From Egibacter sp. (GTDB lineage: Bacteria; Actinomycetota; Nitriliruptoria; Euzebyales; Egibacteraceae), in NCBI GenBank assembly GCA_003553795.1, contig PWFH01000017.1:1-35062 (forward strand): a stretch of 35,062 bases of DNA, written 5' to 3'. The notes below the pieces were generated by a model. It saw only the letters and a program-made list of their open reading frames with translations, had not been told where the DNA came from and did not search any database. The position numbers were made by a program, and so were the translations under genes. Shown here in pieces: positions 2,527-33,374 of this stretch; the first letter of the stretch is position 1; every line of letters starts with the position of its first letter.

Positions 2527-2978
2527 GCCCCGGCCTCCCCGTCGGCCTCACCGGCGGAGGTGGCCTGCGCTGGCTCGTCGAGGGGATGGCCGCGCCGTCC
2601 GGCCCGCGGCGAGCCGGAGAGCCGAGCGACGACCTCGTTCTCCTCGAGGGTGCCGTGCGCCTGGTAGATGCGCACGAGCAGGGCGAGGCCGACCCCGACG
2701 ATGCCGACGCCGACGACGATCGCGGTGAGGATGAGCAGATGCGGCAGCGGGTCGACGTAGCCGGCGGCGTCGACGCCGACCGCCGGGCTGATGATCGGCG
2801 CGGTCGCGCCGTCCTTGACGCTGCCCTCGATGAAGAAGAGGTAGATCGCCGTCGTGAAGATCGTCATGCCCACGAGCTTCTTCGCGAGGTTGCGCATCGC
2901 GAACATCCCGTAGAGCCCGATCGAGAGCAGCACGAGGACGAAGAGGTAGACGTAGCGGTCGACGAAGAGCTCAACCAT
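2523..2978 (-). CDS. mrpC: Mrp antiporter subunit C, NuoK-like (split operon)
   Basis: Small three-helix membrane subunit related to NuoK and MbhG; it contributes conserved acidic residues to the ion path between the large subunits. 151 residues. The ATG at 2978 gives MVELFVDRYVYLFVLVLLSI, and the NLAKKLVGMTIFTTAIYLFF and DPLPHLLILTAIVVGVG segments are typical of MrpC/NuoK. It overlaps mrpB upstream by 8 nt (2971-2978) and mrpD downstream by 4 nt. The C-terminal tail of about 35 residues after the last helix is hydrophilic, Gly/Glu/Ala-rich and longer than in the canonical-operon copy. An earlier in-frame start would run deep into mrpB and gives a non-membrane, Ser/Arg-rich sequence, so I rejected it. 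Confidence 0.92.
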   Translation of the reverse strand: MVELFVDRYVYLFVLVLLSIGLYGMFAMRNLAKKLVGMTIFTTAIYLFFIEGSVKDGATAPIISPAVGVDAAGYVDPLPHLLILTAIVVGVGIVGVGLALLVRIYQAHGTLEENEVVARLSGSPRAGRRGHPLDEPAQATSAGEADGEAGA

Positions 2979-3411
2979 CGACGGGGCTCCCTGCGAGCTC
3001 GTCGTAGACGAGGACCATCGCGCCGAACACCGCGAGCCCGACGGCGATCTCGACGACGAGGATGCCGAGGTAGCGCAGCCGACTCGCGGCGATCTCGCCG
3101 ACCTCCACCGCGGCGTAGTCGAGGAACGCACCGCCGGCGAGCACCGCGACGAGGCCGGTGAGGGCGAAGGCGAGCATGCCGGCACCGGCGGCGAGCGGGC
3201 CGAGCTCGCGTGGCACCGAGCCGAAGGCGATGCGGCTCTCGAGGGTGAGCCGCGGCAGGATCACGCCGACGGCGAGGATGACGCCGCCGGCGAAGCCGCC
3301 ACCGGGGCCGTAGTGGCCGTGGGCGATGATGTAGAGGCCGAACATCGCGATGAACGGGCTGAGCAGCCCACCGACGGTGCGCACGACCTCGCTGGGGTAG
3401 GCGCCGGTCAT
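2971..3411 (-). CDS. mrpB: Mrp antiporter subunit B (split operon)
   Basis: MrpB/MnhB family membrane subunit of 146 residues with four hydrophobic helices. The family signature is clear: VVRTVGGLLSPFIAMFGLYI followed by the glycine-rich loop HGHYGPGGGFAGG. It is equivalent to MbhF and shares the GGGF-x-GG motif with the copy at 11731-12180. The two are strongly diverged elsewhere, so they are not a recent duplication. ATG at 3411 sits in an ATGA overlap with the upstream MbhD/E-like gene. Confidence 0.92.
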   Translation of the reverse strand: MTGAYPSEVVRTVGGLLSPFIAMFGLYIIAHGHYGPGGGFAGGVILAVGVILPRLTLESRIAFGSVPRELGPLAAGAGMLAFALTGLVAVLAGGAFLDYAAVEVGEIAASRLRYLGILVVEIAVGLAVFGAMVLVYDELAGSPVDG

Positions 3412-3950
3412 CCGAGCTCCTCCTGCTCACGGGCGCGCAGCACGAGCGCGGCGCCGAGGGCGGCGGTGACGATGACGAGGGTCTCGCCGAGGGTGTCCTG
3501 CGAGCGGTAGTCGGCGAGCAGCGCGGTGACGACGTTCGGGGTCTCGGTGTCCTCGAGGGAGTCCTCGAGGTAGACCGGCGCGACGCCCTGGTGGGCGGGC
3601 GCCTCGGGGTCGCCCTTGTCGGGCAGCCCCGTGCTCGCGTAGATCATGAGCGCGAGGAAGGCCGCGAGCACCGGCAGGGTCGCCCAGCGCCGTCGCGAGG
3701 AGTCCACGACGTCGGCGCGCCGGCTCGTCGTGAGGATCGCGGCGATGAAGAGCACCCCGGTGACCCCGGCGCCGAGGACCGCCTCGACGAGGGCGACGTC
3801 GACGGCCACCGCGCCGGCGAAGATCAGCGCGGCGAAGAGGCTGTAGGCGGCGAGCAGCGCGACCGCGGCGAGCAGGTCGCGCACCTTGAGCGCGAGCACC
3901 GCGGTCACGATGAGGATGACGAAGAGCAGGACGTCGAGCTCGAGGATCAC
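3408..3950 (-). CDS. MbhD/MbhE-like fused membrane subunit (equivalent of the MrpA C-terminus)
   Basis: 180-residue membrane protein corresponding to the C-terminal part of MrpA, which in Mbh-type complexes is the separate subunits MbhD and MbhE. The N-terminal half carries ALVEAVLGAGVTGVLF, matching the [16 protein letters not shown] segment of the full-length MrpA at 12177-14531. The C-terminal half carries ADYRSQDTLGETLVIVTAAL, matching [20 protein letters not shown] in that MrpA. I chose the GTG at 3950 because it lies in a GTGA overlap with mrpG and opens on the first hydrophobic helix (VILELDVLLFVILIV). This subunit marks the operon as 'split MrpA': the large antiporter domain is encoded elsewhere in the operon. 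Confidence 0.9.
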   Translation of the reverse strand: MILELDVLLFVILIVTAVLALKVRDLLAAVALLAAYSLFAALIFAGAVAVDVALVEAVLGAGVTGVLFIAAILTTSRRADVVDSSRRRWATLPVLAAFLALMIYASTGLPDKGDPEAPAHQGVAPVYLEDSLEDTETPNVVTALLADYRSQDTLGETLVIVTAALGAALVLRAREQEELG

Positions 3951-4297
3951 GTCAGACCCCCCGGTGGTGGCTTGACGTCGTCGGTGCTGACCCACGGCTC
4001 GACGCCGGACTCGCGTCCGGCGCGCACGAGGGCGTGGGCGGCGGTGGGGTTGGCGAGGACGCTGAAGCCGAGCACGAGCACGAGTCGCACCGCGGCGTCC
4101 CAGGTCAGGCCGGGCACGAAGAAGAGCCCGCCGAAGATGAGGATGAGCCCGAGCGTCTCGGACTTCGCGACGGCGTGGGTGCGGGTGTAGAGGTCGGGCA
4201 GGCGCAGCACGCCGACGACGCTGATGACGAGGAAGGCGAGGCCGGCGCTGATGAGAACGATGGCGACGATCGCCATCGGCGTGTCGAGGCCGTTCAT
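3947..4297 (-). CDS. mrpG: Mrp antiporter subunit G (split operon)
   Basis: 116-residue MrpG/MnhG/PhaG-family protein with three predicted helices. The family hallmark GVLRLPDLYTRTHAVAKSET is present, close to the GVLRMPDTLTRSSAATKGTG of the other copy. It is equivalent to MbhC. The ATG at 4297 overlaps the mrpF stop (ATGA), and its stop overlaps the next GTG (GTGA). MrpG is a small peripheral membrane subunit needed for assembly of the full complex. Confidence 0.94.
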   Translation of the reverse strand: MNGLDTPMAIVAIVLISAGLAFLVISVVGVLRLPDLYTRTHAVAKSETLGLILIFGGLFFVPGLTWDAAVRLVLVLGFSVLANPTAAHALVRAGRESGVEPWVSTDDVKPPPGGLT

Positions 4298-4578
4298 CGC
4301 CGCTCCACCGCCTCGTCGTCGTCGCGGCGCTCGACGTACTTGCCGAGCGCGATCGGCAGGAGGAAGGCCAGCAGCGCGAAGCCGAGCGCGATGTCGAGGA
4401 AGAGCACGGGGCGCTCGAAGTAGAAGCCCATGATGACGAGCGCGACGACGCCGTTGACGCTCACGAGCGCGACGGAGACGAGGCGGTCGAAGACCGTGGG
4501 GCCGGCGTAGACCCGCCAGAGGGTCAAGAGGATGACCCCCGCGACGGTGAGCAGCGCGACGAGCAGGAACGTCGTCAT
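4294..4578 (-). CDS. mrpF: Mrp antiporter subunit F (split operon)
   Basis: 94-residue, three-helix MrpF/MnhF/PhaF subunit, equivalent to MbhB. It contains WRVYAGPTVFDRLVSVALVS, the conserved 'RxxxGPTxxDRxxxxD' type region after the first helix, then FYFERPVLFLDIALGFALLAF. The C-terminus is highly charged (KYVERRDDDEAVERR). ATG at 4578 overlaps the mrpE stop by 4 nt. The longer reading frames through this region give arginine/histidine-rich non-membrane sequence and are not real. Confidence 0.93.
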   Translation of the reverse strand: MTTFLLVALLTVAGVILLTLWRVYAGPTVFDRLVSVALVSVNGVVALVIMGFYFERPVLFLDIALGFALLAFLLPIALGKYVERRDDDEAVERR

Positions 4579-5177
4579 CGGCGCGGCACCTCCTCGGCGG
4601 CCGGCTCCCAGACGACCTCGGGGGGCGGGGCCGGGTCCTGGAGGAAGAGCCGGGCGATGCGGTTCTGCATCTCGCCGCTGACGAGGTCGTCGGCGGCGGA
4701 GGGCACGAAGGCGTGGACGGTGAACTCCCGGGTGTCGGGGTCGACGTCGAGGGTGAGCGTGCCGGGCACGAGCGTGATCGAGTTCGCGAGCGTCGTGCGG
4801 GCCACCGGGCTCTCCAGGTGGGTGGTGAAGCGCAGGACGTAGGGCTCGACCGGCAGGCGCGGCTGGAGCACGACCCAGGCGATGAGCACCCCGGCGGGGG
4901 GGATGCGCGCGAGCAGCCACAGGACGTAGGCGATGCTGCGGGCCCAGCGCAGCGGGATGGTCGACGGCGGGGTGTGCCGGCCGAGGTTCGCCGCGACGTA
5001 GCGATGGGTGAACCACGTCACGAGCGCCGCCGAGACCACCCCCATGGCGATGAAGAGGACGTTGTACTGCCCCGAGATCGCGAGCCAGAAGGCGAGCATG
5101 AGGACGAACTCGACGGCCATCGAGCCCGGCCCGAGGCCGGGACCGCGACCCTGGTCCGCGGAGTGCTGCTGTGGCAT
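4575..5177 (-). CDS. mrpE: Mrp antiporter subunit E, long form (split operon)
   Basis: 200-residue MrpE/MnhE/PhaE family protein, equivalent to MbhA. Two N-terminal helices (MAVEFVLMLAFWLAISGQYN and the next) are followed by a third (SIAYVLWLLARIPPAGVLIA). The soluble domain contains the hallmark TTLANSITLVPGTLTLDVD and FTVHAF. The ATG at 5177 shares one base with the preceding stop (TGATG); an internal ATG at 5120 would remove only a Gly/Gln-rich leader of 19 residues and is an equally reasonable start. The C-terminal 50 residues form a Pro/Glu-rich tail. The other MrpE in this window is only 111 residues and lacks the two N-terminal helices. Confidence 0.92.
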   Translation of the reverse strand: MPQQHSADQGRGPGLGPGSMAVEFVLMLAFWLAISGQYNVLFIAMGVVSAALVTWFTHRYVAANLGRHTPPSTIPLRWARSIAYVLWLLARIPPAGVLIAWVVLQPRLPVEPYVLRFTTHLESPVARTTLANSITLVPGTLTLDVDPDTREFTVHAFVPSAADDLVSGEMQNRIARLFLQDPAPPPEVVWEPAAEEVPRR

Positions 5178-6889
5178 CAGACGAACGTCACCCCCAGCAC
5201 GACGACGGCGGTGGCGATCATGACCGCGCCGACCATCCACGTCGGGTAGACCGGCGAGTCCGACGAGGCCCGGGCCTCCTTGACGAGCGGCAGCTGCCCG
5301 ACGACCTCGGCGACGCCGGAGGCCACGCGCGTGCGCAGCGGCGGGTGGTGCGCGAGGCCGCCGGCGGGCGCCGGCTCGCGTTCGGGTCGCAGTCCGCGCA
5401 CCCACGCGGCGAGGCGGAAGGGCGCGACGCGGTAGAACCAGTCGGTGTCGAGGGAGACCTTCCGCTGCGCGTCGACCTTCGCGAGCATGAGCACGAAGCC
5501 GAGCGCGGTGAAGAAGAGGATCTGCGAGGTCTCGATGACCTTGTACGCGGCGTAGGGGTTGTAGTCCACGGGGAACGGCAGGAGGTCGTACAGCAGCCCC
5601 GGGAACAGGCCGAGGACGGTGTTGGCGAGCGCGGCGAGGGCCATGCCGGCGTACATCGTCCCGGGGATCGGCCTGGGCTCGAGCCCCCGGTCGGGACCGA
5701 AGAACGTGTTGTAGGGCAGCTTGAGCCCGGTGTGGAGGAACGTCCCCACCGAGGCGAGCTTGAGGAGGATGAGCACGAGCGTGCGGCCGTCGACCGAGGC
5801 CGCCTCGACGACGAGCTCCTTGGAGATGAACCCGCTGAAGAGGGGGAAGCTCGAGATCGACACCGCGCCGATCATGTAGAGGATGAGCACCCACCGCAGC
5901 TTCTTCGTGAGCCCCCCGAGCTCGGAGGCCCGCGACGTCCCGACGGCGTGGAGCACCGCGCCGGTGCCCATGAGCAGCAGGCCCTTGTAGAGGATGTGGG
6001 CGAAGGCGTGCGCGGTCGCGCCGTTGATCGCGAGCTCGGTGCCGATGCCGACCGCGGCGACCATGTAGCCGACCTGGCTGATGATGTGGTAGCCGAGCAG
6101 GCGCCGGATGTCGTTCTCGAGCACGGCGTAGACGACGCCGTAGAGCGCCATCGCGACCCCGAGCCAGACGAGGAGCTCGACCCCGGGGAAGCCGCGCGCG
6201 AGGGCGTAGACCGAGGCCTTCGTCGTGTAGGCCGAGAGGAACACCGTGCCGGCCACCGTCGCCATCGGGTAGCCGTCGGGCAGCCAGGCGTGCAGCGGCG
6301 GCACCGCCGCCGAGAGCAGGAAGCCGACCATGATGAGCACGGTCGCCGGTACGAGCTCGAAGGCGGTGAACGCCAGCGACCCGGTCAGCGCGTAGTGCCA
6401 GATGACCCCGGCGAGCAGGAGCTTGCCCCCGGCGAGCTGGACGTAGAGGTAGCGCTTGCCGGCGCGCCCGGCCTCCTCGGTCCCCCGGGCCCAGATGAGG
6501 AAGACGCTCGCGAGGGCCTTGATCTCCCAGAAGAGGAAGAGGCTCAACAGGTCACCGGCGAAGACCACCCCGAGGGCGCTGCCGGCGTACATCGTCGCCG
6601 CGACGCGCTCGGTCGTGCCCATGATCTGGAAGCCGTAGACCGCCCCGAGGAACGCCGCGAGGCAGAAGACGTAGCCGAACGCGAGGCTGAGCGCGTCGAC
6701 CTTGAGCGGCTCGAGCGTGAAGCCGTAGAAGTCGACGGCGAGGACGTCGCCGGGGCTCAGGCTCGCGACCTGGGCGAAGGCGAGCACCGGCAGGGCGAGC
6801 ATGAGCGCGGCGCCGAGGCGGCCGCGCACGCCCATGAGCGCGAGGGCGCCGACGAGGAGGATCGCCGCGGGCGGCACGAGGTCAAGCAT
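5177..6889 (-). CDS. MrpD-like large antiporter subunit D' lacking the helix-7 lysine (split operon)
   Basis: 570-residue membrane protein of the proton-translocating NuoL/M/N-Mrp family, about 14 core helices plus a C-terminal extension ending in one further hydrophobic helix (MVGAVMIATAVVVLGVTFV). The helix-5 glutamate is present (Glu122, LSLFLFWEIKALASV), as are Lys224 (AYTTKASVYALARG) and Lys302 (AHILYKGLLLMG). The usual helix-7 lysine before P-x-H-x-WLP is replaced: the sequence reads GFLLSAAVPPLHAWLPDG, so Ser193 stands where the other large subunits here have Lys ([45 protein letters not shown]). The ATG at 6889 was chosen because membrane sequence starts there; it overlaps the 87-aa gene by 8 nt. 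The substitution suggests a specialised ion path or a structural role. Confidence 0.9.
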   Translation of the reverse strand: MLDLVPPAAILLVGALALMGVRGRLGAALMLALPVLAFAQVASLSPGDVLAVDFYGFTLEPLKVDALSLAFGYVFCLAAFLGAVYGFQIMGTTERVAATMYAGSALGVVFAGDLLSLFLFWEIKALASVFLIWARGTEEAGRAGKRYLYVQLAGGKLLLAGVIWHYALTGSLAFTAFELVPATVLIMVGFLLSAAVPPLHAWLPDGYPMATVAGTVFLSAYTTKASVYALARGFPGVELLVWLGVAMALYGVVYAVLENDIRRLLGYHIISQVGYMVAAVGIGTELAINGATAHAFAHILYKGLLLMGTGAVLHAVGTSRASELGGLTKKLRWVLILYMIGAVSISSFPLFSGFISKELVVEAASVDGRTLVLILLKLASVGTFLHTGLKLPYNTFFGPDRGLEPRPIPGTMYAGMALAALANTVLGLFPGLLYDLLPFPVDYNPYAAYKVIETSQILFFTALGFVLMLAKVDAQRKVSLDTDWFYRVAPFRLAAWVRGLRPEREPAPAGGLAHHPPLRTRVASGVAEVVGQLPLVKEARASSDSPVYPTWMVGAVMIATAVVVLGVTFV

Positions 6890-7145
6890 GCCCCGCCCCC
6901 GCGTCGTCGTGGGCGCTGGGCGCGTCACCGGCACGCAGGGCGCGCTGCCGCTCGTAGTAGTCCTCGGGGCGCTGCAGCCAGACCTTGCCGAGCCACTTCG
7001 ACACGACGATGATCCCGACGCAGCCCCCAAGGCCGAGCAGCACCGCCCGGCCGGTCGGCAGGTCGACGAGCAGGTCGATGCCCACCCCGACGAGGAGGGC
7101 GACGGCGGCGATCGCGAGGCCGCGCGACAGGGTCATCGGCGTCAC
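6882..7145 (-). CDS. Small two-helix membrane protein embedded in the split Mrp operon, unknown function
   Basis: 87 residues starting at GTG 7145, which lies in a GTGA overlap with the upstream D'' gene; its stop overlaps the downstream D' start by 8 nt. Both junctions imply that it is a translationally coupled operon member. Two hydrophobic helices (LAIAAVALLVGVGIDLLV and AVLLGLGGCVGIIVVSKWLG) are separated by DLPTGR. They are followed by an amphipathic, charged tail (VWLQRPEDYYERQRALRAG) and an acidic/His end. I do not recognise the family; it is not MrpB, C, F or G. Position between two large antiporter-like subunits suggests an accessory or assembly subunit, which is inference. An ATG at 7136 is an alternative start. 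Confidence 0.85.
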   Translation of the reverse strand: MTPMTLSRGLAIAAVALLVGVGIDLLVDLPTGRAVLLGLGGCVGIIVVSKWLGKVWLQRPEDYYERQRALRAGDAPSAHDDAGAGHA

Positions 7146-8587
7146 GGGGCACCTCCGATGACGCTCGCCGAGACGCCCTCGGCGATGTCGAAGAACCCGA
7201 AGACGTCGCCGAGGCCGAGCGCGAGGCCGATCGCCGCGGTGATGACGAGCGGCACGACCATGAGCGGCGTCGCGTCGCCGCGGGCGGCGCCCTCGGGCGG
7301 CGGGCGGAAGAACGCCCGGTGGATGATCGGGAAGAGGTAGCCGGCGGTGAACAGGCCGCTGCCGAGCAGGATGAGCCCGAGGACGACGTCGCCGGCCTCG
7401 AAGGCCCCGTCGACGAGGAACCACTTGCTCATGAAGCCGCCCATCGGCGGCAGGCCCGCGAGCCCCACCGAGGCCACCGCGAACGCCGACATCGTGAACG
7501 GCATGCGGTGGCCCGCCCCGTCGAGGTCGCTGACGCGATCGAGGTGCGCCTGGATGTGCAGCGCGCCGGCCGCGAAGAACAGGGTGATCTTCAGCGTCGC
7601 GTGGTTGGCGATGTGGAGCATCGCCCCGTCCCACGCCTCGGCGGCGAGGATCGACAGCCCGAGGATGATGTAGGAGAGGTGGGCGATCGTGGAGAACGCG
7701 AGCCGGCGCTTGAGGTTGTCCTGGAAGAGCGCGATCGAGGACGCCACGACGATGGTGATCGCGGCGAGCGCGGCGAGCGCGGCGGTGGCGCCGACCTCGG
7801 CGAGCGCGGCCGGCCCGAGGACGAAGCCGATGGCCCGGGCGAAGCCGAAGACGCCGGCCTTGACGACGGCGACGGCGTGCAGCAGCGCCGAGACCGGCGT
7901 CGGCGCGACCATCGCCGAGGGCAGCCAGGCGTGCAGCGGCATGATCCCCGACTTCGTGCCGAAGCCCAGGGCCATGAGGGCGAACACCGCGACGAGCATG
8001 CCGTCGGAGAGCCCCGCCGCGGCGAAGCCGCCGGGGGTGAACGTGAGCGTGCCGACCTGGGCGTAGATGATCGCCACGGCGAGCAGGAGCGCCACCCCTC
8101 CGGTCAGCAGGTAGCTGAGGTAGCGACGGCCCGCGGCGATCGCCTCGTCGTTCTCCTTGTGGACCACCAGCGGGTAGGTCGCGACGGTGAGCAGCTCGTA
8201 GAAGACGAGGAAGGTGAAGAGGTCGGCGGCCAGGGCGATGCCGAAGGCCGAGGCGAGGCAGACCGCGAAGCTCGCGAAGAAGCGCGTCTGCTTCTTCGCG
8301 CCCTCCCCGCGCAGATACCCGACGCTGTAGAACGTCGCGAGGATCCACAGGGCCGAGGCGGTGAGCGCGAAGAGCATCCCCAGGCCGTCGGCGCGCAGCC
8401 CGAAGGAGACACCGGGGACGAGCTCGAGCAGGGTGACCTCGTGCGGGCGCCCCTCGCGCAGTCCCGGCACCATCGCGAGCATCACGCCGAAGGTCACGAA
8501 CGCGCCGAGCACCGACGCGGTCTCGCGCAGGTTCGGGCGCTTGCCGAGCAGCACGACGAGCACCGCCACGACGAGGGGCAGCGTCAC
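7142..8587 (-). CDS. MrpD/NuoM-like large antiporter subunit D'' (first gene of split operon)
   Basis: 481 residues from GTG 8587, about 14 membrane helices, with the full set of charged channel residues: Glu131 (LFTFLVFYELLTVATY), Lys212 (GFGTKSGIMPLHAWLP), Lys243 (VVKAGVFGFARA), and the HMPF...GLPPMGGFMSKWFLV region. Together with D' it replaces the large N-terminal antiporter domain of MrpA. The start is uncertain. GTG 8587 begins inside the first helix and has no Shine-Dalgarno match. The frame stays open back to a stop at 8651-8653 and reads TTLIDATPSLLPLAA before the GTG, a natural N-terminus for this family, yet contains no ATG, GTG or TTG. A CTG start (8605 or 8602), another rare start, or a frame error is possible. 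Confidence 0.9.
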   Translation of the reverse strand: MTLPLVVAVLVVLLGKRPNLRETASVLGAFVTFGVMLAMVPGLREGRPHEVTLLELVPGVSFGLRADGLGMLFALTASALWILATFYSVGYLRGEGAKKQTRFFASFAVCLASAFGIALAADLFTFLVFYELLTVATYPLVVHKENDEAIAAGRRYLSYLLTGGVALLLAVAIIYAQVGTLTFTPGGFAAAGLSDGMLVAVFALMALGFGTKSGIMPLHAWLPSAMVAPTPVSALLHAVAVVKAGVFGFARAIGFVLGPAALAEVGATAALAALAAITIVVASSIALFQDNLKRRLAFSTIAHLSYIILGLSILAAEAWDGAMLHIANHATLKITLFFAAGALHIQAHLDRVSDLDGAGHRMPFTMSAFAVASVGLAGLPPMGGFMSKWFLVDGAFEAGDVVLGLILLGSGLFTAGYLFPIIHRAFFRPPPEGAARGDATPLMVVPLVITAAIGLALGLGDVFGFFDIAEGVSASVIGGAP

Positions 8588-8669
8588 GGCGGCGAGCGGC
8601 AGCAGCGAGGGCGTGGCGTCGATGAGCGTCGTCCGGTGCGGTCGCGTCGGTCAAGGCCCGCGGGCAGGG

Positions 8670-8692
8670 GCCTCGGCGCACGACGCCGAGGC
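8670..8692. other. Perfect 9-bp inverted repeat upstream of split Mrp operon
   Basis: GCCTCGGCG at 8670-8678 is exactly complementary to CGCCGAGGC at 8684-8692 with a 5-base loop. It lies between the candidate promoter at 8715-8743 and the first gene, so it would be in the 5' untranslated leader of the operon transcript, or it could help end transcription from the upstream mrpA-G operon. No U-tract follows on either strand. Confidence 0.45.
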
Positions 8693-8714
8693 GCAGGCTC
8701 GGGGAGCGGGCGGG

Positions 8715-8743
8715 AGCCTACCGTCAGCGTCGTCCCAACCCAA
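8715..8743 (-). promoter_or_regulatory. Candidate promoter of the split Mrp operon
   Basis: On the minus strand TTGGGT (8743-8738) and TAGGCT (8720-8715) are separated by exactly 17 bp. TAGGCT fits the TAnnnT -10 pattern of actinobacterial housekeeping promoters, and the -35 matches only TTG. Transcription would begin near 8708, giving a leader of about 120 nt that contains the 8670-8692 hairpin. Prediction from consensus only. Confidence 0.35.
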
Positions 8744-8797
8744 AGTCAGGGGCGCCGACCCCGCCTGCGGCCGTCGGCCGCCCGCGGTGACGGGGTG

Positions 8798-8814
8798 CGC
8801 TGCGGCGCGCAGCG
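8798..8814. terminator. Hairpin just after mrpG, possible terminator or attenuator
   Basis: CGCTGCG (8798-8804) and CGCAGCG (8808-8814) form a 7-bp perfect stem with a 3-base loop, 10 nt beyond the mrpG stop codon. There is no U-tract. It may reduce read-through from the canonical mrp operon into the split operon. Confidence 0.3.
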
Positions 8815-8823
8815 GCGCGGGGC

Positions 8824-9213
8824 CTAGCCGCGGTCGGAGGAGGCACCCTCGGCGGCGTCGCGGTGCCACGCCATGCGCTGGCGCTCGTAGGGGTAGAAGC
8901 GGCGATAGTCGTCGATGACGGTGCCCTCCCACAGCGGTGCTCCGGAGCGGTAGGCCGCGCGGCCGATGAGGTGGCCGGCCAACGGGGCGCTCGCGATCTG
9001 CAGCGCGATCGCGAGCGCGACCTTGATGAGGGCGTTGGGCGTGCCGATCGCGATGCCGACGCCGAGCAGGATCATCCCCGCGCCGAGGCCGGTGCCCTTC
9101 GTCGCCGCGCTCGAGCGCGTGAGGGTATCGGGCATGCGCAGCACGCCGATGCCGGCGATGAGCATGACGAGGACGCCGGCGAACATGAGGACGGCGGCGA
9201 CCACGGCCCTCAT
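8824..9213 (-). CDS. mrpG: Mrp antiporter subunit G (canonical operon)
   Basis: 129-residue MrpG/MnhG subunit, last gene of the canonical operon. Three helices with the family signature GVLRMPDTLTRSSAATKGTG after the first helix. The C-terminus extends about 40 residues beyond the last helix in a charged, aromatic stretch (TVIDDYRRFYPYERQRMAWH) not seen in the other MrpG. ATG at 9213 overlaps the mrpF stop by 4 nt; the stop is TAG. Confidence 0.94.
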   Translation of the reverse strand: MRAVVAAVLMFAGVLVMLIAGIGVLRMPDTLTRSSAATKGTGLGAGMILLGVGIAIGTPNALIKVALAIALQIASAPLAGHLIGRAAYRSGAPLWEGTVIDDYRRFYPYERQRMAWHRDAAEGASSDRG

Positions 9214-9488
9214 GCGCTTCTCGCCGTGACGAGCGCCGCGAGCGCGACGGTGGCGAGGAAGCCGAGCAGCGAGGCGATGAGGACGACGTCGATGAAGGCC
9301 TCCGAGCCGCTGCGCAGCGCGAGCAGCGCGAAGGAGGCCACGACCGAGAAGAAGCAGACGTCGGCGGCGATCGCCCGGTCGGCGACGAGCGGGCCGAGCA
9401 CGCCGCGCAGCATGCCGAGGAGGAAGGCGAGCGCGAGGCCGAGCAGGGCGAGGTCGATGACGGGGCCGTCGAGCAGGGTCGTGGTCAT
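9210..9488 (-). CDS. mrpF: Mrp antiporter subunit F (canonical operon)
   Basis: 92-residue three-helix MrpF subunit. The conserved region after the first helix reads RGVLGPLVADRAIAADVCFF and the C-terminal part SEAFIDVVLIASLLGFLATV. It follows mrpE after a 22-nt gap, the only non-overlapping junction of this operon. A GGAG sequence lies about 8 nt before the ATG at 9488, so it appears to have its own ribosome site. Confidence 0.93.
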   Translation of the reverse strand: MTTTLLDGPVIDLALLGLALAFLLGMLRGVLGPLVADRAIAADVCFFSVVASFALLALRSGSEAFIDVVLIASLLGFLATVALAALVTARSA

Positions 9489-9510
9489 CGTGGCGCTCCG
9501 GGGTCGGGGG

Positions 9511-9846
9511 TCATCGCAGGGCCCACAGCAGACGGCGCTCGAGGTCGGCGATGTCGGCCTCGAGCGCCTCGCGGGAGTCGATGAAGAGCGCGTGGACGTA
9601 GAGCGCCCGCCCGTCGAGGGAGACCTCGAGCGACAGCGTGCCCGGGGTGAGCGAGATCGCGTTCGCGAGGAGCATCGTCTCCCAGTCGCTCGCGGTGTGG
9701 ATCGGCACGCGCACGATCCCCGCGCGCATCGCGGTGCCGGGCGTGAGGACCTCCCAGGCCACGCGGAGGTTGGCCTGCACGAAGATCGTGAGGAAGTACG
9801 CGCCGAAGACCGGGACGCGGACGAGGCGGCGCAGCCATGCCCTCAT
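9511..9846 (-). CDS. mrpE: Mrp antiporter subunit E, short form (canonical operon)
   Basis: 111-residue MrpE-family protein; most MrpE proteins have about 160 residues. It retains one N-terminal helix (RVPVFGAYFLTIFVQANLRV) and the complete soluble domain with the hallmark ETMLLANAISLTPGTLSLEV and ALYVHAL, but lacks the first two helices of the family. The start is fixed by an ATGA overlap with mrpD at 9843-9846, so the shortening is not a start-calling artefact. The reading frame is intact and the operon overlaps are preserved, so it is probably functional, not a pseudogene. Compare the 200-residue MrpE at 4575-5177. Confidence 0.92.
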   Translation of the reverse strand: MRAWLRRLVRVPVFGAYFLTIFVQANLRVAWEVLTPGTAMRAGIVRVPIHTASDWETMLLANAISLTPGTLSLEVSLDGRALYVHALFIDSREALEADIADLERRLLWALR

Positions 9847-11387
9847 CGTCCCCGCACCGCCTCGAGGTAGGCGCTCGGGTCGAGCAGGCCGGCCGCGGCC
9901 GGCTCGGCGAGGGTGACGAGGAGCTGCGCGCCGAGGCCGAGGAGGATCGTGGCGACGCCGACGGCGAGCGAGGGCAGGGCGAGCGCGCGCACCCGCGGCG
10001 GGGTGAAGACGACCGGCGGCGGCTGGGGGATGCCGTCGACGACGCGCGGCAGCCGCGCGCGGTCGGGGTCGCCCTCGGTGCCGGCCTCGGCGCTGACCGC
10101 CGCGCTCGGCTCACCCCAGAAGACCCCGTTCCAGATCTTCATCATCGACATGAGCGTGAAGAAGCTCACGACCACGGCGACGCCACCGACGACGTAGTGC
10201 GCGCCCTCGAACGACGCGCGGATGAGCATGAACTTGCCGACGAACCCCGATGTCGGCGGGACGCCGGCGAGGGCGAGGGCGGGCAGGAGGAAGCCGATCG
10301 CCACGGCCGGGCGGGTGCGCAGCATCCCACCGAGCTCGGCGAGCCGCCCGGTGCCGGTCACCGTCTCGACGGTGCCCGCGGCGAGGAAGAGCGCGCCCTT
10401 CACCGCGATGTACTGCAGGAGGTAGACGATGCCGGCGGTGACCCCCGCGAGGCTCCACAGCCCGAGCGGCAGGACGAGGTAGCCGACCTGGCTGACCATG
10501 TGGAAGGCGAGGATCGCCCGCATGTCGCCCTTGCCGACGGCGCCGAGGACGCCGACGAGCATCGTGATCCCCGCGACGACGAGCAGGAGCAGCGACCAGC
10601 GGGGCTCCCCGGCGTAGACGACGCTGTAGAGCCGGAAGAGCGCGTAGACGCCGACCTTCGTGAGCAGGCCGCTGAAGAGCGCGGTCACCGCCGGCCCCGC
10701 GCAGACGTAGGCGCGCGGCAGCCAGCCGTGCAGCGGCACGAGGCTCGCCTTCACCCCGATGGCGATCGCGATGACCCCGGCGGCGACCGCCGCGCCCGGG
10801 TCGGCCGCCGCGGCGTGGAGCTCGCCGAGGTTGACGGTGCCGACCCGGCCGTAGAGCAGCGCGAGGCCGAGGAGGAAGGCCGTCGAGGCGAGGAGGTTCG
10901 TCATGATGTAGATCGCCCCGGCGCGCTCCTGCGCGCGTCCTGCGCGCAGCGTGAGCAGGACGTAGGAGGCGATGAGCATGACCTCGAAGGTCACGAAGAG
11001 GTTGAAGAGGTCGGCGGTGAGGAACGAGGCGAAGACGCCGGTCACGAGGACGCCGACGAGCGGGTGGAACTGCACGTGGTGGTCCTCGCCGCGCAGCATC
11101 GCGAAGACGACCGCGAGCAGGGCGGCGAGCGCGGTCGTCGTGATGAGCAGCGCGGCGAAGCGGTCGGCGACGAAGGGGATGGCGATGCCGACCGGCCAGC
11201 CGCCGATCTGCGTGGCGTGGACCGCCCCGTCGGCGGTCTCGGCGACGAGCACCCCACCGATCGCCACGCTCGCCGACAGGGTCAGCAGGCTGATGGCCTG
11301 CTGGACGTGGTAGTGCCGGCGCGCGAGCAGCGCGACGACCGCGCCGAGCAGCGGCAGCCAGAAGGGGGCGGTGAGCAGGCCGCTCAT
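9843..11387 (-). CDS. mrpD: Mrp antiporter subunit D (canonical operon)
   Basis: 514-residue large antiporter subunit with about 14 helices. Channel residues are present: Glu135 (DLFNLFVTFEVMLIASY), Lys213 (GVKASLVPLHGWLP), Lys244 (LLTKVGVYALFRL), plus the FHMVSQVGYLVLP and GVPPTSGFVGKFMLI regions typical of MrpD/MnhD. A hydrophilic loop of about 40 residues (PSAAVSAEAGTEGDPDRARL and following) interrupts the last helices, an insertion before the final membrane segment. ATG at 11387 overlaps mrpC by 4 nt. Confidence 0.95.
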   Translation of the reverse strand: MSGLLTAPFWLPLLGAVVALLARRHYHVQQAISLLTLSASVAIGGVLVAETADGAVHATQIGGWPVGIAIPFVADRFAALLITTTALAALLAVVFAMLRGEDHHVQFHPLVGVLVTGVFASFLTADLFNLFVTFEVMLIASYVLLTLRAGRAQERAGAIYIMTNLLASTAFLLGLALLYGRVGTVNLGELHAAAADPGAAVAAGVIAIAIGVKASLVPLHGWLPRAYVCAGPAVTALFSGLLTKVGVYALFRLYSVVYAGEPRWSLLLLVVAGITMLVGVLGAVGKGDMRAILAFHMVSQVGYLVLPLGLWSLAGVTAGIVYLLQYIAVKGALFLAAGTVETVTGTGRLAELGGMLRTRPAVAIGFLLPALALAGVPPTSGFVGKFMLIRASFEGAHYVVGGVAVVVSFFTLMSMMKIWNGVFWGEPSAAVSAEAGTEGDPDRARLPRVVDGIPQPPPVVFTPPRVRALALPSLAVGVATILLGLGAQLLVTLAEPAAAGLLDPSAYLEAVRGR

Positions 11388-11734
11388 GCTGGATCGTCCT
11401 CGGGCTCGTGCCCGCCGGGCCGCTCGATGTCACCGCCGCGCAGGACGACGATCCCGCGCGCGGCGAGGGCGAGGAGGAAGGCGGTGACGCCGAAGGAGAT
11501 GACGATCGCGGTGAGCGCGAAGGCCTGCGGCAGCGGGTCGGCGGGCTGCGCGGCGACGCCCTCCTGGCCGATGATCGCCACGCCGCGGCGGCTCACGCCG
11601 CCGGCGGCCATGAGCAGCGTCGTCGCCGCGTGACCGAGGAGGACGAAGCCGAGCACGGCGCGCACGAGCCCGCGCTGGAGGATGAGGAACGTCCCCGCCG
11701 CGGCGAGGAGCCCGACGATGATCGCGGCGGTCAT
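11384..11734 (-). CDS. mrpC: Mrp antiporter subunit C (canonical operon)
   Basis: 116-residue NuoK-like subunit with three helices. Recognisable segments are [20 protein letters not shown] and the NuoK-type [20 protein letters not shown]. The ATG at 11734 gives a protein starting on the first helix and overlaps mrpB by 4 nt; longer frames give arginine-rich nonsense. The C-terminus is short and acidic ([10 protein letters not shown]). Confidence 0.95.
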
Positions 11735-12180
11735 GCGTCCTCCCGCTCGGGCAGGGTGACCTCCTGGGACTCCGCGGCGTAGCCCATGTGACGGACGATC
11801 CCGACGACGAGGCCGACGACGACGAGGTAGACGCCGACGTCGAAGACGAGCGAGGCGGCGACCTCGAGGCCGCCCGGCAGCGTGACCTTGCCACCGGCGA
11901 GGAACGCCCCGTCGAGGAGCAGGCCGGCCAGGCCGTAGAGCAGGGCGATGAGCAGCCCGGTGCCGACGAGCGGGGTGAAGCGCAGGACCCGGCTGCCGAC
12001 GATGCGCTTGCTGCCGCGGCTGAAGTAGAGGAGCACGACGACCGCCCCGGCGGTGAGCCCGCCGATGAAGCCGCCGCCGACGGCGTCGTGGCCGCGCAGC
12101 AGGAGGTAGAGCGACACCAAGAGCATGAGGGGCGCGAGCGCGCGGCTGCCGGTCCGCAGGATGAGGCTGTCGGGCATCAT
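11731..12180 (-). CDS. mrpB: Mrp antiporter subunit B (canonical operon)
   Basis: 149-residue four-helix MrpB subunit beginning [20 protein letters not shown], with the family loop [13 protein letters not shown]. It overlaps mrpA by 4 nt (ATGA at 12177-12180) and mrpC by 4 nt. As in Bacillus-type Mrp operons, mrpB is a separate gene behind a fused mrpA. Confidence 0.95.
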
Positions 12181-14531
12181 CGGCGGCGCTCCTCGCTCGC
12201 GGCCGCCTCGCCGGTCTCGGCGACGTCACGGGCGGTGAGTGCCTCGCCCTCGACGCGCACCCCGAGGCGCAGCACCGCGAAGATCCCGGCCACCGCGACG
12301 CCGAGGACGGTGATCTCACCGAGGGTGTCGAGGGCCCGGAAGTCGACGAGGATCGTGTTGACGATGTTGCCCCCGCCGGTCTGCCCCGCCGCCTCGGTGA
12401 GGTACCAGGCCCCGGGCTCGGAGAGTCCGCGACGCCCGGTGAGCACGAACGTCGCCGTGCCCGCGAGCGCGCCGACGACGACGGCGATGACGACCGCGCC
12501 GAGCTGACGCGGCACCGGCGTCGGCGAGAAGCGCAGCGGCAGCCGCCTGAAGGCGAAGACGACGAGCGCCACGGTGAGCGTCTCGACGAGCAGCTGGGTC
12601 AGCGCGAGGTCGGGCGCACCGAGCAGGACGAACCACGCCGCGACGAGGAAGCCGGTGAAGCCGAGCGCGGCGACGGCGGCGAGGCGGCTGCGCGCCTGGG
12701 CGACCTTGACGAGCGAGACCGCGAGCAGGGCGATGACGACCCAGTCGGGGCCCTGCGACAGCGCCGCGGAGCCGTCGATGCCGAGCTCTGGCCAGGCCAC
12801 CGCCGCACCGCCGAGGGCGACGAGCACGCCGAGGATCGGCAGGAGGTAGGTCGCCGGACGCGAGGACGTCGCCGGCTCGCCGACGCGCTTGCCGAGCGCG
12901 ATCGCGCCGTCGTAGAGCCGGTCGAAGCTGCCGTCGCCGGTCACCGGCAGGCGCACGCGGCCCTGGAGGGCCTCGACGCGCCCGCGGGCGGCGAAGAGCG
13001 CGAGCCCGCCGGCGACGACGACCGCCGACAGCGCGAGGGGGACGGTGGGCCCGTGCCACAGCGCGAGGTGCAGCCCTGGGTCGACGCCGGTCGTGGCCAG
13101 GGCCACCCCGTTGGCGAGGGGGTCGAGCAGCGGCACGGCGAGGCCGACGACGAGCCCGCCGACGGCGGTGACGAGCGGCACGGCCACGAAGGCCCCCGGC
13201 GCGGCGTGGACGTGCAGACCCTCGGGTGCCGGCCCCTCGAACGTGCGCCAGTAGTAGCGCGCGGAGTAGGCGAAGGTCACGACCGAGGCGGTCACCGCGA
13301 GCGTGGCGACGAGCGGGGCGAGCGCGGGGTCTCCGGGCGCGGCGGCGAAGGCCGCGAAGGCCTCCTCCTTGGAGACGAAGCCGAGCAGCGGGGGGATGCC
13401 GGCCATCGACAGGGCCGCGAGCCCGCCGGCGAGCGCGACGCCGGGCAGGGCGCGGCGCAGCCCCCCGAGCTCGGTGAGGTCACGGGTGCCGGTCTCGTGG
13501 TCGATGATGCCGACGCTCATGAAGAGCGTCGCCTTGTAGAGCGCGTGGGCGAGGGTGTGCAGGCCCGCGGCGGCGAGCGCGAGGGGCGTGCCGACGCCGA
13601 TGAGCGCGGTGAGGAACCCGAGCTGGCTCACCGTGCCGTAGGCGAGCAGCGCCTTGAGGTCGGTCTTCTTGAGCGCGACGACGGCGCCGAGCAGCGCGGT
13701 GGCGAGCCCGAAGGCGAGGAGGCTCGAGCGCCACAGGGCGACCTCCCCGTAGAGCGGGGTCATGCGGAAGAGGAGGTAGACGCCGGCCTTGACCATCGTC
13801 GCGGCGTGGAGGTACGTCGAGATCGGCGTCGGCGCGACCATCGCCCCGGGCAGCCAGAAGTGGAACGGCACCTGCGCGGACTTCGTGAAGGCCCCGGCGA
13901 GCAGGAGGACGATGACCGCCGGGGCGAGCGGCGAGGACGCGAGGGCGGCGTCGGCGAGGATCGCCGAGAGCGTGAAGGTCTGGGCGTCGACGCCGAGGAG
14001 GACGAAGCCGGCGAGCATCGCGAGGCCGCCGACGGCGGTGACGAGGAAGGCCCGCGTCGCCCCGGGCTTGCCCTCCCCGAGCCCGCCGATGAGGAAGAAC
14101 GAGCTCACGCTCGTGAGCTCCCAGAAGACGAAGAGCAGGAGGAGGTCGTCGGCGACGACGAGGCCGAGCATCGCCGAGGCGAAGAGCGTGAGCAGCCCGA
14201 GCACGCGGCCGACCTGGGGGTCACCGGCGTGGAAGTAGCGGGCGGAGTAGGCCATGACCGCGGTGCCGATGCCGCTGACGATGAGCGCGAAGAGCAGCCC
14301 GAGGGCGTCCATGCGCAGGCTGAGGGCGAGGTCGGCGGCCGGGACCCACGCGAGCTCGGCGCTCACGGGCTCGCCGGCGAGCACGCCGGGGCCGGCGGCT
14401 GCGAGCGCGGCGGTGGCCGCGGCGAAGGCCGCCGCGAGCAGCCACGCGGCGTCACGGCCGGCGAGGCGGGCGAGGGCCGGCGCGAGCGCGGCGAGGGCGA
14501 AGCCTGCGGCGAGGACGACGAGGAGCGTCAC
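12177..14531 (-). CDS. mrpA: Mrp antiporter subunit A, full length (canonical operon)
   Basis: 784-residue MrpA, normal length for the family (about 800). The N-terminal two thirds is a NuoL-like antiporter module with Glu138 ([16 protein letters not shown]), Lys217 ([15 protein letters not shown]), Lys248 ([14 protein letters not shown]) and Lys333 ([10 protein letters not shown]). The C-terminal third carries the MbhD/MbhE-equivalent segments [16 protein letters not shown] and [16 protein letters not shown]. MrpA and MrpD are thought to carry out coupled Na+ and H+ movement. The GTG start at 14531 lies within a GTGA overlap with a possible short upstream ORF (14528-14650). It is the first structural gene of the A-B-C-D-E-F-G operon. 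Confidence 0.96.
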
Positions 14532-30913: not shown

Positions 30914-32044
30914 ATGACGACCTCGACCGTGCCCACGAGCATCGACGACCCCGTCAACGCCGCGATCCTCAGCGTCTCGGAGGACCGCGTGCAGGGCTTC
31001 CACCGCCGCCCCCTCGAGGTCATCGCCGAGGGCTCCGACGCCGACGTCGACACGGTCATCACGCGCATCGCGGCGATGCTCGAGGCGGGGACGATCCGGC
31101 GGGTGCGCCAGACCCTGCTGTCGACGAGCCTCGCGCCGGGCGCGCTCGTGGCCTGGCGGGTGCCCCCCGAGCGCCTCGACGAGGCCTTCGACTGGATGTT
31201 CCGCGAGGATCCCTTCACCGGCCACGTCGTCATCCGCACGACCGACCGCGAGACCCCCGGCAGCGACTACCGGCTCTGGACGACGCTGAAGGTCCCGCGC
31301 CCCTTCTCGCTCGAGGCCCACGCGCGCCACCTCGCCGAGCGCACCGGGGCGACGGACTTCGCGCTCCTGCCGGCCAAGCGGCTCTTCGCCCTCGGCGTCG
31401 GCCACGTGCGCCGCCGCAGCGTCGAGCCCGGGGAGCGCACGCCCGAGCCCGGCCGGGTCCTCGACACCGAGGTCGTCGACCTCAACGACCGCGAGTGGCG
31501 GGTGCTGACCGCCCTCAAGCGCGAGTTCACCCCCGCCGAGCTCAGCAGAGAGCTCTGGGCGCCGCGCGCCGCCGAGGCCGGGGAGACCCTCGAGGGCTTC
31601 TGCGAGGTCGCCGCCGACCTCGCCAGCCGCGACATCGTCGGGCGCTTCTCGACGTTCCTCGAGCACGCCAAGCGGCTCGCCGACGGCACGCGGGTGACCC
31701 GCTACAACGCGCTCTTCCACTGGCGCGTGCCCGCCGGCCGCGAGCTCGACGCCGGCCAGGAGGTCGGCCGGCACCACTGCATGACCCACGCGTACTGGCG
31801 CGAGGGCGGCCCGGCGTTCGCCGACGTCAACGTCATGGGCGTGGCCCACGGCACCGAGAAGGACCGCGTGCTCGCCCACAAGGCCGCGATCGACGACCAC
31901 CTCGCCGAGGCGGGCATCCCCGTGGAGTACACGAACGTCTTCTGGGGCGGGCGCAGCGAGATCAAGCCGAGCGAGATCAGCCCCTACGCCTACCGCGACT
32001 GGTGCGCCGCGCAGGGCCTCGACCCCGCGACGATGACGGCCTGA
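30914..32044 (+). CDS. Fused AhbA/AhbB (NirD/L)-like siroheme decarboxylase homologue
   Basis: 376 residues in two related modules, each a winged helix followed by an AsnC/Lrp-type alpha-beta domain (about 10-170 and 185-360). Module 1 has FHRRPLEVIAEGSDADVDTV, then GHVVIRTTDR...DYRLWTTLKVP and the end LLPAKRLFALGV. Module 2 has CMTHAYWREGGPAFADVNVM and MGVAHGT. These follow the pattern of AhbA/AhbB and NirDL: a 'T-H-N/C-Y ... N-L-W/Y' strand, an H-G turn and a 'LLPAKRLFKLxV' end. Such enzymes convert siroheme to didecarboxysiroheme for alternative haem or haem d1 synthesis. It could instead be an Lrp-type regulator or act on another ligand; the usual family RHxxxGY stretch is altered. Start by the -10 box just upstream. 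Confidence 0.62.
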   Translation: MTTSTVPTSIDDPVNAAILSVSEDRVQGFHRRPLEVIAEGSDADVDTVITRIAAMLEAGTIRRVRQTLLSTSLAPGALVAWRVPPERLDEAFDWMFREDPFTGHVVIRTTDRETPGSDYRLWTTLKVPRPFSLEAHARHLAERTGATDFALLPAKRLFALGVGHVRRRSVEPGERTPEPGRVLDTEVVDLNDREWRVLTALKREFTPAELSRELWAPRAAEAGETLEGFCEVAADLASRDIVGRFSTFLEHAKRLADGTRVTRYNALFHWRVPAGRELDAGQEVGRHHCMTHAYWREGGPAFADVNVMGVAHGTEKDRVLAHKAAIDDHLAEAGIPVEYTNVFWGGRSEIKPSEISPYAYRDWCAAQGLDPATMTA

Positions 32045-32048
32045 GCCC

Positions 32049-33374
32049 ATGGCGACCTCGCTGCGGCGCCTGCGCCTGCTCTCGCTGCCGCTCGGCACCG
32101 CCGCCCTCGGGCTGCGGGCGCGCCTGGCCACCCTCGCCGGCGGCGACCCCGACGCGGTGCGCGCCAAGCTGCGGCGGCGCAACGCCGAGCGCACCCGCGC
32201 GACGCTCGGCGAGCTCAAGGGCGGGGCCCTCAAGGCCGGCCAGCTGCTGTCGACGGTCGACGCGCTCCTGCCGCAGGACCCCGAGGCGACGTGGAGCGAG
32301 GCGCTCGGCGAGCTGCGCGAGGTCGGCGTGCCGGTGCCCTTCGAGGAGCTCGCGCCGGTGCTCTTCGACGAGCTCGGCGGGAGCTGGCGCCGCGACCTGC
32401 CCGCCCTCGACGCCTCCCCCGTCGCCGCGGCCTCGCTCGGGCAGGTCCACCGCGGGCGCTGGCGCGACGGCCGTGAGGTCGCGGTGAAGATCCAGTACCC
32501 CGGCGTGGCCGAGGCCGTGGCCAGCGACGTCGGCACGGTCGCGGCGATGTCACGGCTCGCCGCCCGGCTCGCGCCCTCCCTGGCCCTGCCGCCACTCGTC
32601 GACGAGCTGCGCACGCGCCTGGCCGAGGAGCTCGACTACACCCGCGAGGCGGCGGTGCAGACCCGCTTCGTCGAGGGCTTCGCCGGCGACACCGGCGTCG
32701 TCGTGCCCGAGGTCGTCGCCGCGACGCCGCGGGTGCTCGTGAGCACGTGGCTCGACGGCACGCCGCTCGCCGCGCTCGCCGACGCGCCGCCCGAGCGGCG
32801 TGACGCCGCGGCGCGCGCCTACCAGCGCTTCCTCGTCGCCGGCCCCGAGCACGCCGGCTGGCTGCACACCGACCCCCACCCGGGCAACTTCCGCATCCTC
32901 GACGACGGCGCCCTCGGGGTCATGGACTTCGGCTCGGCCCTGGCGATGCCCAACGGCATGCCCGACTCGTTCGGGCGGCTGCTTGCCGCGCTCATCGCCG
33001 ACTCCCCCGCCGAGGTCGGCGCGGCGCTCGAGGACGCGGGCTTCGTCGAGCCGGGCGCGGCCGTCGAGGTCGACAAGCTCCTCGACTACATGCGCCCGTT
33101 CACCGAGCCGGCCGCCGCGTCGGAGTTCACCTTCACACGGTCGTGGCTGCGCGGGCAGTTCGGCCGCGTCAACGACCCGCGCAACCCCGACTTCGGCGTC
33201 GCGCTGCAGCTGCGGATGCCCGCCGAGCACCTCTTCACCCACCGGGTCTGGCTCGGGATGGTCGGAGTGCTCTGCCACCTCGAGGCCACGGTGCCGGTCC
33301 GCTCGGTGCTCGAGCGCTGGCTGCCGGGCTTCGCCCCGCCTGCCGAGGCGACGGCCGCGCCGCGTAGCGCCTAA
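32049..33374 (+). CDS. ABC1/AarF/UbiB-family atypical kinase-like ATPase
   Basis: 441 residues, cytoplasmic or membrane-associated. The N-terminal KxGQ motif is Lys62-Gln65 (GALKAGQLLS), the alanine-rich nucleotide loop reads VAAASLGQVH (125-134), Lys147 is in VAVKIQYPGV, and the catalytic loop is HTDPHPGN with Asp275 and Asn280, then Asp293 in VMDFGS. The family acts in quinone or other isoprenoid-lipid metabolism as an ATPase or kinase. Unlike many UbiB proteins there is no clear C-terminal membrane helix pair. It starts four bases after the stop of the Ahb-like gene, so the two are co-transcribed. A functional link to tetrapyrrole or quinone chemistry is inference. Confidence 0.9.
   Translation: MATSLRRLRLLSLPLGTAALGLRARLATLAGGDPDAVRAKLRRRNAERTRATLGELKGGALKAGQLLSTVDALLPQDPEATWSEALGELREVGVPVPFEELAPVLFDELGGSWRRDLPALDASPVAAASLGQVHRGRWRDGREVAVKIQYPGVAEAVASDVGTVAAMSRLAARLAPSLALPPLVDELRTRLAEELDYTREAAVQTRFVEGFAGDTGVVVPEVVAATPRVLVSTWLDGTPLAALADAPPERRDAAARAYQRFLVAGPEHAGWLHTDPHPGNFRILDDGALGVMDFGSALAMPNGMPDSFGRLLAALIADSPAEVGAALEDAGFVEPGAAVEVDKLLDYMRPFTEPAAASEFTFTRSWLRGQFGRVNDPRNPDFGVALQLRMPAEHLFTHRVWLGMVGVLCHLEATVPVRSVLERWLPGFAPPAEATAAPRSA

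Follow-up and report, generated by a model that had tools for sequence, protein, structure and literature searches.

The locus studied here raises the question of whether a gene that looks like one for an Lrp/AsnC-type regulator codes for an enzyme of heme synthesis. The gene is situated in a 35,062 nt stretch of Egibacter sp. DNA that was analysed as a whole (the window). In spite of its regulator-like look, its product is most likely a heme-making enzyme. The open reading frame has an ATG start and no internal stop, its translation is 376 aa long, and the position of the start is the same in most orthologues. A chance open reading frame or a wrong frame was ruled out by the relatives encoded at more than 500 loci. 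We use the name group I for the clade of this protein and group II for the canonical fused AhbAB proteins. The features, in window positions, are as follows.

30914..32044, + strand: group I siroheme-decarboxylase-like gene, 376 aa, fused AhbA-like and AhbB-like halves
30950..31399, + strand: AhbA-like half, residues ~13-162, wHTH and AsnC-type ligand/active-site domain; NCBIfam AhbA at residues 29-162; profile match to 4czd_A
31223..31237, + strand: H104-V-V-I-R108, counterpart of AhbA His115/Arg119; the Tyr of the motif is Val
31238..31273, + strand: group I-specific insertion between R108 and W122, TTDRETPGSDYR (group I/II alignment)
31364..31387, + strand: LLPAKRLF motif, residues 151-158 (translation, group I/II alignment)
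31469..31987, + strand: AhbB-like half, residues ~186-358; NCBIfam AhbB at residues 211-329; profile match to 4czd_B
31787..31801, + strand: H292-A-Y294-W-R296, counterpart of AhbB His98/Tyr100/Arg102; invariant in groups I and II
31835..31852, + strand: MGVAHG motif, residues 308-313; H312 invariant in groups I and II, G313 in group I
31943..31975, + strand: WGGRSEIKPSE, group I signature replacing REYKK near AhbB Lys152 (alignment)
32049..33374, + strand: ABC1/UbiB-type kinase (PF03109, 1.3e-50), 4 bp downstream of the group I gene

An earlier note, made from the DNA alone, had described the product as a fused siroheme-decarboxylase-like protein with two tandem wHTH/AsnC modules, easily mistaken for an Lrp regulator. 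The fused siroheme-decarboxylase-like layout and the two tandem modules were borne out. The Pfam family AsnC_trans_reg2 matched two stretches of the protein (6.6e-18), together with a weak NirDL-like HTH, and NCBIfam placed AhbA and then AhbB along the chain. The NCBIfam scores were 46.1 bits for AhbA (cut-off 140) and 65.5 bits for AhbB (cut-off 125); the curated equivalog cut-offs are failed by other group I members too. None of the Lrp models in NCBIfam matches the protein.

The nearest solved chain found by phmmer was NirDL, the siroheme decarboxylase of Hydrogenobacter thermophilus (PDB entries 4ch7 and 4czc), and the group I profile gave the same result. With a wider profile that included group II, NirDL was matched at 1.8e-76, and AhbA and AhbB were also far above the Lrp regulators, whose chains were matched at ~1e-7 and in the N-terminal part only. 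An AlphaFold2 model built from 70 sequences (pLDDT 90.2) replaced an earlier one from 18 close homologues (pLDDT 72). Foldseek aligned it with NirDL over nearly the full length (E-value 7.7e-20, TM-score 0.78 to the target), and the AhbA/B chains were the next-best fold matches among enzymes. By sequence, profile and predicted fold the protein is closer to NirDL, AhbA and AhbB than to DNA-binding Lrp proteins, and its best profile match was not to a DNA-binding Lrp model. In the model, the two AsnC-like modules are predicted to form one active site.

With NirDL the group I proteins share the fused two-module layout, the fold and the conserved His/Arg motifs. The structure-aligned identity, however, is ~19%, and group I differs in having Val for the Tyr of the AhbA half, the insertion and the WGGRSEIKP segment at the C-terminal side. 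Desulfovibrio AhbA and AhbB (4czd/4un1) are two separate subunits, whereas group I proteins are single fused chains; the latter keep the counterparts of His115, Arg119, His98, Tyr100 and Arg102 but fall below both NCBIfam cut-offs and do not keep the strict Lys152. In the profile alignment AhbB Lys152 aligns with P352 and Lys151 with K351, and Lys152 is therefore not strictly kept.

In D. desulfuricans, AhbA His115 and Arg119 contact the Fe and a propionate, while AhbB His98, Tyr100 and Arg102 are the proposed catalytic residues, with the Arg102Ala variant inactive (PMC4145669). The counterparts H104, R108, H292, Y294 and R296 are invariant in an alignment of 89 group I proteins from several phyla. 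The motifs LLPAKRLF and THAY...MGVAHG (the latter at residues 291-313) are present as the earlier note had them. Its 'altered RHxxxGY region' was indeed altered, though not in the form of that motif. What is changed is the HxYxR of the AhbA half, with V106 in place of Tyr in 89/89 proteins and the insertion before W122; in the AhbB half the HxYxR is intact, again in 89/89.

The conservation of the catalytic residues in all 89 homologues makes the ligand-sensing role suggested in the earlier note less likely. It also bears on the explanation that group I consists of heme- or siroheme-sensing Lrp/AsnC-like transcription regulators derived from an enzyme. The retained wHTH fold and a faint resemblance to Lrp proteins in both profile and fold are in line with such a role, as is the reported binding of DNA by a NirL homologue (PMC4145669). 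We consider a regulator improbable, given residues conserved without exception, the lack of a match to any NCBIfam Lrp model, a mutual exclusion with HemE (see below) that fits an enzyme, and the fact that no consistent target neighbourhood was found across phyla in the loci examined.

A scan of genome contigs detected at least 503 loci encoding group I proteins. The best 80 of these at least 503 loci showed 63-90% identity over the full length and came from Nitriliruptoria, Planctomycetota, Verrucomicrobiota, Gemmatimonadota, Chloroflexota, Armatimonadota and Eremiobacterota. No plasmid-borne copies were found by tblastn, and no description of the clade was found in the open-access literature. 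Groups I and II are separate clades, split on a long branch of a midpoint-rooted tree. The Nitriliruptoria group I proteins make a single clade inside Phycisphaeraceae, which suggests, with the midpoint rooting of the tree in mind, that they may have been acquired from a Phycisphaeraceae-like lineage.

The Egibacter genome also encodes a group II protein, a canonical fused AhbAB (C71, locus L031:6855-8015, + strand) that passes both NCBIfam cut-offs (231 and 237 bits). Group II proteins have the same architecture and catalytic residues as group I; on the other hand, the identity between the groups is about 23-25%, and only the former pass the AhbA/AhbB cut-offs. The neighbourhood of the L031 gene, common across the family, includes a MoaE-like protein, an epimerase-like protein and a large membrane protein. 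Within the family (own genome included), six genomes had group I only, nine had group II only, four had both (G000, the genome of this study, as well as G001, G009 and G018) and two had neither. In four genomes group I occupied the usual neighbourhood of group II (L039, L044, L045, L048). The distribution in this small and related sample hints at a substitution of one group by the other.

Searches for families of heme synthesis covered 47 genomes, of which 22 belong to the order and 25 were added by way of the loci. All of them carry group I except G004, G005, G016 and G019, which have group II only. HemE, ferrochelatase and HemY/CgoX were each detected at the family cut-off in one genome of the 47, G107, and were not found in the Egibacter genome or in the closed or near-closed genomes G015, G029, G104 and G105. 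Matches below the cut-offs were left out (HemE-superfamily proteins in three genomes, 80-93 bits vs 303; a HemY-like protein of G103, 70 bits vs 98). Of the control genomes, C. glutamicum and B. subtilis, for instance, were positive for HemE, ferrochelatase and HemY, so the searches work. ChdC was present in 43/47 genomes (four of them with weak matches), SUMT in 42/47, CbiX-like genes in 37/47 and SirC-like genes in 40/47, the last an upper limit since a few weak matches may be other Rossmann proteins. Since the usual middle genes of heme synthesis are missing in nearly all tested genomes, heme is probably made there via siroheme, by a pathway that has received little recognition.

The siroheme synthesis genes sought in the Egibacter genome, SUMT, SirC-like and CbiX-like, were all present. 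The view of the earlier note that a siroheme route would be unexpected in this bacterium did not hold, with HemE, ferrochelatase and HemY not found and a second, canonical AhbAB at hand. Among 101 relatives, group I/II was present in 35 and HemE in 47 with no overlap (Fisher p ~1e-13, a value inflated by relatedness). Among 35 more distant genomes of the same phylum the counts were 8 and 19, again with no overlap (p ~5e-4, similarly inflated). Two of the control genomes, Deinobacterium chartae and Sulfolobus acidocaldarius, had matches to AhbA-like, ChdC, SirC, SUMT and CbiX families and none to HemE, HemH, HemY or, at 1e-25, AhbC.

A heme-gene operon was looked for within the window, but the neighbours (SDR, ALDH, DoxX-like protein, ABC1 kinase, Fe-S protein) have no direct link to heme. 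The ABC1/UbiB-type kinase is probably co-transcribed with the group I gene, with which it is also paired at two loci of Gemmatimonadota. Further away in the window (1048-14531, - strand), Mrp/complex I-type antiporter subunits are encoded in a long series that includes five Proton_antipo_M proteins. A Chloroflexota locus, L107, has ChdC, then group I (4-bp overlap), then SirC (6-bp gap). HemW is upstream of group I in seven Verrucomicrobiota loci; SirC is close to HemA in 19 of the 20 loci inspected and is fused to HemC in three of them. In ~19 Planctomycetota loci (within L069-L140) a flavin-reductase-like protein (PF01613) is encoded directly upstream of group I, of which it is a possible partner. 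In two other Chloroflexota loci, group I is closely preceded by the gene of a small molybdopterin oxidoreductase of PF00174 that resembles MsrP/sulfite dehydrogenase (L123:4116-4736, L125:9401-9997).

From homology, fold, residue conservation and gene detection or non-detection we infer a substrate, a product, a route and a direction: group I would be a diverged fused siroheme decarboxylase of an aerobic heme route through siroheme, coproheme and ChdC. We put the probability of this reading at about 0.6. That NirDL and AhbAB are nearest by phmmer, profile and fold, and that the main catalytic residues do not vary among the 89 members, argues for a siroheme decarboxylase. The siroheme-ChdC route is supported by the near-absence of HemE, ferrochelatase and HemY where ChdC, SUMT, SirC-like and CbiX-like genes are common, by the zero overlap of groups I/II with HemE (a co-occurrence confounded by shared ancestry), by the L107 locus, by HemW upstream and SirC near HemA, and by the precedent of Haloferax.

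The proposed route would lead from uroporphyrinogen III to precorrin-2 (SUMT), sirohydrochlorin (SirC) and siroheme (CbiX/SirB). Group I would then turn siroheme into didecarboxysiroheme, an AhbC-like or replacement enzyme would make coproheme, and ChdC would make heme b. Siroheme may be held in the cleft between the two AsnC-type domains, with H104 as the predicted Fe ligand and with the side chains surrounded by R108, H292, Y294 and R296; decarboxylation of the ring C and D acetates would yield 12,18-didecarboxysiroheme. As a guess, the two copies of the Egibacter genome would divide the work, group I acting in the aerobic branch and group II in an anaerobic one of the AhbC/AhbD or NirJ type.

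Several observations count against the siroheme decarboxylase reading. Besides the failed AhbA/AhbB cut-offs and the lost Tyr of the AhbA half, G107 has group I along with a full classical HemH-HemY-HemN-HemE cluster elsewhere in the genome (G107:C42, L223:764-5603), which may be an acquisition or contamination. Outside the order, no convincing SirC was found in eight genomes, including seven of Verrucomicrobiota (G107, G112, G115, G118, G119, G124, G125) that nevertheless have SUMT, CbiX-like and ChdC genes. Furthermore, AhbC was not detected in most genomes, which leaves the formation of coproheme unexplained there. Among the 25 genomes with group I that lie outside the order, 16 had no AhbC above 1e-25, and 14 of the 22 tested genomes of the order had no match even at 1e-25; AhbC-like genes scoring >330 bits were present in 9/25 and 6/22, respectively. 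The AhbC/NirJ-like gene of the Egibacter genome scored 346 bits (AhbC cut-off 650). It belongs to a tandem radical-SAM pair (C78, L156:6056-8304), a NirJ1/NirJ/AhbC-like protein and a TIGR04053 member, and wherever AhbC-like genes were inspected as pairs the radical-SAM partner was TIGR04053. No conserved candidate for an AhbC replacement was seen in the ChdC neighbourhoods, nor in the SUMT neighbourhoods of genomes lacking SirC.

Since no AhbC was detected in roughly two thirds of the genomes, either AhbC is replaced by another enzyme or group I uses a different tetrapyrrole; the genomic data do not tell the two apart. The second option would make group I a decarboxylase of the same fold acting on a substrate such as Fe-uroporphyrin III or a different octacarboxylate of the uroporphyrin type, with coproheme passed straight to ChdC and both HemE and AhbC bypassed. 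The near-universal ChdC next to the undetected AhbC fits this option, as do the Verrucomicrobiota that retain CbiX-like genes without a convincing SirC, the replaced Tyr and the insertion near the pocket. A further point in its favour is that NirDL was crystallised with iron-uroporphyrin III (4czc), although there the compound served as a substrate analogue. Most genomes, however, retain SUMT and SirC, usually near HemA, and in L107 group I is clustered with SirC; we regard another substrate as clearly the less probable option, though one to be taken seriously.

The radical-SAM genes bear as well on whether group I is a siroheme decarboxylase for an anaerobic branch only (AhbC/AhbD heme or NirJ-type heme d1), with no part in the general heme supply. 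Some group I genomes do have the AhbC/NirJ-like and TIGR04053 pair, several of them without group II. We find this quite unlikely, the least probable of the explanations considered, as about two thirds of the genomes retain group I and ChdC without an AhbC-like gene, and the full Ahb cluster of G105 (L158) holds group II while its group I gene is located elsewhere.

The siroheme decarboxylase reading has a precedent in Haloferax, where coproheme made from siroheme is finished aerobically by ChdC and anaerobically by AhbD (PMC5746218; PMC8305020). The hybrid route of Haloferax volcanii (AhbAB, AhbC, then ChdC/PitA) is like the proposed one in that siroheme-derived coproheme is finished by ChdC aerobically. 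It is, however, an archaeal route with a recognised AhbC, whereas most group I genomes have none. A 2024 review still assigned siroheme-dependent heme synthesis to archaea and to some sulfate reducers (PMC10991733). A broader and more tentative proposition, to which we give somewhat less than even odds, is that group I marks an unrecognised way of making heme aerobically, shared by several bacterial phyla. Coproheme would there be formed with no need for HemE, ferrochelatase, HemY or AhbC, either through direct decarboxylation of a uroporphyrin-type substrate by group I or with the help of an undiscovered AhbC replacement.

If the genomic reading is true, aerobic members of several bacterial phyla would rely on a form of siroheme-dependent heme synthesis, and a gene that passes for a regulator would be a marker of this route. 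The missing step, an AhbC replacement or a new substrate, would then be a defined and testable question.
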